Source: Pirellulales bacterium (GTDB lineage Bacteria; Planctomycetota; Planctomycetia; Pirellulales; DATAWG01). Taken from it: a stretch of DNA of 57,945 nt. Shown here in pieces: positions 26,954 to 27,054 of the stretch. The stretch covers positions 1-57,945 of the forward strand of contig DASZFO010000104.1 of assembly GCA_035939775.1 (NCBI GenBank), given 5' to 3'. The notes beneath the pieces were generated by a model. That model saw only the letters and a list, made by a program, of their open reading frames with translations, made no database searches and was not told the origin of the DNA. A program made the translations under genes and the position numbers. Each line of letters opens with the position of its first letter. The stretch's first letter is position 1.

Positions 26954-27054
26954 GCTTGTTCTGGGGACGTTGCTCCCCAGGACAAGCGGTTGGCCGGAGA
27001 TCGAGGAACCCTCGGAGACGCGAACTCCGTGACCCAGCGTGATCGCGGCCAACC
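26954..27054 (+). ncRNA. Candidate bridge RNA of the IS110 element
   Basis: A 5' stem-loop (GCTTGTTCTGGGG at 26954-26966 with CCCCAGGACAAGC at 26975-26987, one G-U pair) is directly followed by a second domain closed by GGTTGGCC (26988-26995) and GGCCAACC (27047-27054). The latter encloses the small hairpin CGAGG/CCTCG and further unpaired loops. It ends 85 bases before the transposase ATG. A 5' stem-loop plus looped domains upstream of the recombinase is the arrangement known for IS110 bridge RNAs. Function is inferred. Confidence 0.45.

Follow-up and report, generated by a model that had tools for sequence, protein, structure and literature searches.

The left end of an insertion sequence carried by a Pirellulales bacterium (assembly GCA_035939775.1, contig DASZFO010000104.1) appears from its sequence to encode a bridge RNA of the IS110 group, a reading to which a probability of about 96% is assigned. 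The RNA is a new and well-supported addition to the IS110-group family, the mechanism of which is already known. The window, meaning the whole 57,945-nucleotide stretch that was analysed, holds what its ends and gene content identify as a complete IS110-group element at 26748-28108 (Table 1). An initial annotation of 26954-27054 had described a stem-loop followed by a second closed domain, just upstream of an apparently intact IS110 transposase, and had proposed this as a candidate bridge RNA, the loops of which would predict the target. The 14-bp stem-loop, the domain closed by GGTTGGCC/GGCCAACC and an intact transposase of 313 aa with its catalytic residues were all found. The identity of the RNA is supported by a recurring architecture, by covariation and by guides equal to the target and the element ends. 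The proposed span was right for the 5′ stem-loop and the target-binding loop, but it missed the donor-binding loop at 27067-27131.

Table 1. Features of the insertion sequence, its bridge RNA and its target repeat in the window.
Feature	Position	Strand	Basis or detail
Left flank: REP-like target repeat, left unit, with the left target ...GCGGAACC at its end	26690..26745	+	27 repeat matches in own genome; doublets aligned with the window IS removed
Left CT core dinucleotide	26746..26747	+	7 left junctions, all AACC-CT-TGTATG
IS110-group insertion sequence	26748..28108	+	Bounded by a CT core on each side; 1363 bp if one core is counted
TATGTT, -10 hexamer of predicted junction promoter	26750..26755	+	10/12 consensus bases for TTGACA-17-TATGTT
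Palindrome in left end, about 70 bp	26811..26882		Opposite-strand self-match and fold; absent from left ends of relatives
Speculative promoter-like match TTGCCA-16-GAAAAT, 16 nt upstream of RNA	26911..26938	+	9/12 consensus bases; expectation from shuffling the region, 0.3
Bridge RNA 5′ stem-loop, 14 bp, GCTTGTTCTGGGGA / TCCCCAGGACAAGC	26954..26987	+	Fold
Target-binding loop, closing stem GGTTGGCC (26988-26995) / GGCCAACC (27047-27054)	26988..27054	+	Fold, covariation over 23 RNAs, individual folds
Left target guide (LTG) GGAACCCT	27005..27012	+	8/8 match to left flank plus core
Right target guide (RTG) GACCCAG	27031..27037	+	7/7, reverse complement of core and right flank CTGGGTC
Putative handshake guide CG	27038..27039	+	Complementary to donor positions 6-7; read by the rule in PMC11208158
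Donor-binding loop, CCC/GGG closing pairs and inner stem	27067..27131	+	Consensus fold, covariation
Left donor guide (LDG) ACAGCCGCT	27072..27080	+	9/9, identical to right terminus plus core at 28102-28110
Right donor guide (RDG) ATTCGCAAG	27117..27125	+	Aligned with IS621 right donor guide ATTTGCAAG
IS110-family DEDD recombinase, 313 aa, intact	27140..28081	+	Pfam PF01548, PF02371; alignment to IS621 8wt6 and ISCro4 9t56
TTGACA, -35 hexamer of predicted junction promoter, in right end	28090..28095	+	Sequence
Right CT core, then right target GGGT	28109..28110	+	5 right junctions, all ACAGCCG-CT-GGGT
Inverted second unit of the REP-like doublet interrupted by the IS	28283..28320	-	Repeat matches, doublet alignment

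The limits of the element were established from its copies. Counting the window copy, seven left ends and five right ends occur in the own genome (G000, 384 contigs). The six left and four right ends besides the window copy are located at contig ends, as is expected of a collapsed repeat. All seven left junctions read AACC-CT-TGTATGTTTC and all five right junctions read ACACAGCCG-CT-GGGT, with the flanks diverging beyond; these counts were drawn from searches and contig ends, and the other copies were read at their ends. The seven left and five right junctions thus define the element as 26748-28108, with the bridge RNA segment inside. Ends that exclude this segment had been named in the initial annotation as grounds for abandoning the RNA; the cores at 26746-26747 and 28109-28110 enclose it.

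The long non-coding left end (393 nt) and short right end, without long subterminal inverted repeats, are those of the IS110 group. The IS1111 group and its seekRNA (PMC11187229) share the transposase superfamily and RNA-guided target choice, whereas their non-coding region and guide RNA occupy a long right end and subterminal inverted repeats are present. In the window element the non-coding region is on the left, and only 27 nt separate the transposase stop codon from the right core.

The recombinase matches PF01548 (DEDD_Tnp_IS110, E 2.3e-25) and PF02371 (Transposase_20, E 6.8e-19), combining the DEDD RuvC-like domain with a Transposase_20 domain that bears the catalytic serine. Its nearest relatives with a solved structure are ISCro4 (9t56) and IS621 (8wt6). 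Through alignment to IS621, the catalytic residues D10, E54, D96, D99 and S235 were all found to be present. D10, E54 and D99 correspond to D11, E60 and D105 of IS621, which we take to be further catalytic residues of that enzyme. D96 and S235 align with D102 and S241, which are catalytic in IS621 according to PMC11208158.

The RNA is composed of a 5′ stem-loop, followed by two internal-loop domains that are kept by covariation. The target-binding loop also holds a GATC/GATC helix and an inner hairpin, CGGAG/CTCCG. Folding, as advised in the initial annotation, forms the stems of the 240-nt segment, with an energy that is ordinary (z -1.57; 11 of 200 shuffles fold as well). As the folding energy is unremarkable, the case rests on comparison across elements. 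No Rfam family reached its cut-off anywhere in the window.

A covariance model of homologues (R1), which had likewise been advised, was built from 13 sequences and matches the window at 26988-27131 with 100.1 bits. Besides the window copy, it detected 20 RNAs, spread over 12 other genomes of the phylum; most of these RNAs adjoin an IS110 transposase. L168, from a genome of the phylum, carries the same RNA as L090. In an alignment of 23 RNAs, 96.6% of cells are paired and 12 of the 17 pairs have changed on both sides. The covariation score of 0.448 compares with 0.162 in shuffles, none of 500 of which reach it, and with 0.088 or less when the structure is slid; fitting the alignment to the model biases it towards the structure, but the gap to the shuffles is large. 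The covariation on which the initial annotation had staked its claim is thus present. The 5′ stem-loop lies outside the model, as does the outer helix of the target loop, which forms in individual folds with differing sequences. The stems are beyond chance because related transposases are preceded by the same architecture, in which compensatory changes occur, and because the loops equal the target and the ends. One weak R1 match at 11298-11413 (E 0.16), antisense inside a fliG-like ORF, was taken as chance. The fliH/fliG/fliF-like flagellar ORFs of the window, judged by translations alone, occupy 10151-13631 of the minus strand.

Comparison of the loops with the flanks, also proposed in the initial annotation, revealed guides that match at both ends. 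The first loop is complementary to both target strands, core included (LTG 8/8, RTG 7/7), and it does predict the target as had been claimed. The second loop is complementary to the donor ends, with an LDG that pairs 9/9 and an RDG that is homologous to that of IS621, showing one mismatch and one wobble under the IS621 pairing scheme. The right donor CTTGTAT is common to the two elements. The IS621 RNA sequence used here was verified against E. coli genomes, where it precedes the annotated IS621 transposase. In not one of 400,000 order-1 random sequences with the composition of the region did the LTG, RTG and LDG matches occur in order. The site spelled out by the predicted target guides has received the element seven times or more in the own genome.

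The same agreement was seen in related elements, the ends of which were set from termini alone (CTTGTA-like and ACAGNCGCT-like), with the guides unused. Across nine elements, the left match sums to 65 against 46.6 with swapped targets (p 5e-6) and the right match to 57 against 42.0 (p 1.5e-5). In an enlarged set, several members of which came via the RNA model, 16 left targets gave a sum of 116 against 82.8 when swapped and 14 right targets gave 79 against 61.0, each with p about 1e-5, the limit of 100,000 permutations; the sum of 79 is slightly low, as the target of L169 was entered shortened and L169 itself matches 7/7. The predicted guides fit the flanks of their own elements but do not fit the flanks of other elements. 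Matching guides recur in the independent RNAs that the model detected, and the right-side pairing of L177 is 9/9. L164 and L166 have near-identical RNAs with differing LTGs (TGTCCGCCCCT and TGGTTGCCCCT), each fitting its own left flank. The left donors also agree with the guides: ACAGCCG in the window, L169, L177 and G024, ACAGTCG in most elements, ACAGTTG in L097 and L103, and ACAGATG in L096, with one mismatch in L061. In the G024 element (L122-L128) the guides match both flanks, with a left junction that reads GCTGGGT-AG-TGTC and a right junction that reads ACAGCCG-AT-GTCCC; its core departs from CT and is apparently not the same at its left and right ends. No empty target site of this element turned up in a search for such sites.

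Two other readings of the segment upstream of the transposase were weighed. The stems could lie in protein-coding sequence, as part of an N-terminal extension of the transposase, the frame being open upstream to 26612; an in-frame ORF of 489 aa (26612-28081) is present in the ORF list. However, this extended frame would have its start to the left of the core at 26746, beyond the limits of the element, and the open frames of relatives G007 and G024 are just 318 and 339 aa. The Pfam match begins at residue 7 of the 313-aa form, and the upstream sequence evolves as paired RNA. With a start outside the element and short frames in relatives, the extension was rejected as coding, and the probability left to it is close to nil. 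The stems fold directly upstream of the transposase start and might instead form an attenuator or other cis-acting structure in its 5′ UTR, with no guide RNA. In an attenuator there would be no need for the loops to equal the target and element ends or to covary with the flanks, and this explanation is very improbable.

The bridge RNA would be transcribed from a promoter formed upon excision. On sequence alone, the circle junction would rebuild TTGACA-17-TATGTT, a near-consensus promoter, and in most relatives TTGA and TAT are positioned and spaced alike. At 393 nt, the left end is longer than those of relatives (165-292 nt), and the RNA would therefore begin about 200 nt past the junction promoter. 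The extra segment has no clear homolog among the related elements that were fetched. Contigs of other copies end inside the palindrome of the left end. As this palindrome of about 70 bp is placed between the junction promoter and the RNA, the leader might block RNA expression, leaving an inactive element with true bridge RNA ancestry. This is unlikely, as each of the six other left ends has the first 115-126 nt of the leader at 100% identity, which means that copies that moved have carried the leader along. In addition, all guides and catalytic residues are intact, and the RNA is closely preceded by a promoter-like match. It has tentatively been considered, with the odds well against it, that the RNA is uncoupled from the junction promoter: with an internal promoter at about 26911-26938 and the extra palindromic leader at 26748-26953, the integrated element may produce its guide RNA without excision, or a hairpin in the leader may gate the RNA.

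The target of the element is a palindromic repeat, CGGCCTGAAAGGCCG..GGAGCCCAGCCCAGGG..hairpin..AACCCTGGG, which holds the left flanks and most right flanks and occurs as inverted doublets in the genome. Within the left unit of the repeat, the IS lies in the 3′ arm. Only two unoccupied exact GGAACCCTGGGT sites were found. The doublets resemble REP sequences; in each, two units face each other in inverted orientation, with CGGCCTGAAAGGCCG at their ends and GCCCAGGG/CCCTGGG as stems, and a pair measures about 260-400 bp. They are located at 26690-26747 plus 28283-28320 of the window and, elsewhere in the own genome, at C169:31225-31503, C329:2941-3261, C110:5187-5447, C354:32171-32571 and C123:59056-59339. 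There are four Y1_Tnp genes in the same genome, but a connection between the target repeat and REP-associated tyrosine transposases was not established. The related G092 element is likewise inserted in a repeat that forms inverted pairs; CCCACCCTAC sites number 47, and those of the reversed control 3. That REP sequences can be targeted by IS elements is already known (PMC1525189, PMC11208160). ISPpu9/ISPpu10 and other REP-targeting IS (PMC1525189, PMC8450116) likewise insert into repetitive extragenic palindromes, but their hosts and repeats differ from those of the window element.

The best-described counterpart is IS621 of E. coli (structures 8wt6-8wt9), for which PMC11208160 and PMC11208158 describe an RNA in the left end with the same order of 5′ stem-loop, target loop and donor loop. 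The two elements share the LTG/RTG/LDG/RDG layout, the CT core, the right donor with a near-identical right donor guide, the junction promoter, insertion into REP-like palindromes and the catalytic residues. In contrast to IS621, the window element has its own target, GGAACC-CT-GGGT, a left donor of ACAGCCG rather than ACAGTAT, a 7-nt right target guide, the longer left end with its extra palindrome, and a planctomycete host. The bridge recombinase ISCro4 is the closest by sequence among those with solved structures (E 2.3e-36), the comparison being one of recombinases. In the IS621 left end of E. coli NN5 (L133 2000-2250; also H1-H7 and H11-H15) 72 bp are duplicated in tandem, and the join falls precisely at the left target guide of IS621 itself (GTATCGGGC-CT-TGTATTATCC), as if the element had recombined into DNA encoding its own guide.

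By analogy with IS621, the RNA-guided mode of action is probably the same. The element would be excised as a circle, as PMC11208160 and PMC11208158 describe for IS621, and the junction of right and left ends would then drive transcription of the RNA; a junction promoter rebuilt in the IS621 circle is reported in PMC11208158. Within a recombinase tetramer, the target-binding loop would pair LTG and RTG with GGAACC-CT-GGGT, and the donor-binding loop would pair LDG and RDG with ACAGCCG-CT-TGTATG. Cleavage of the top strands after CT, followed by their exchange, would leave the circle inserted in a REP-like repeat, within its stem.

The finding adds a planctomycete element with both ends, four predicted guides, at least seven insertions at sites that agree with the guides, and relatives with matching guide and target pairs. 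It provides natural evidence for the rules of bridge RNAs, in the form of 7-nt right target guides and of LTGs reprogrammed between the near-identical L164 and L166. Peculiar to the window element is its extended left end, with the palindrome between junction promoter and RNA. It is also a further case of IS110 elements that have settled in REP-like palindromes.
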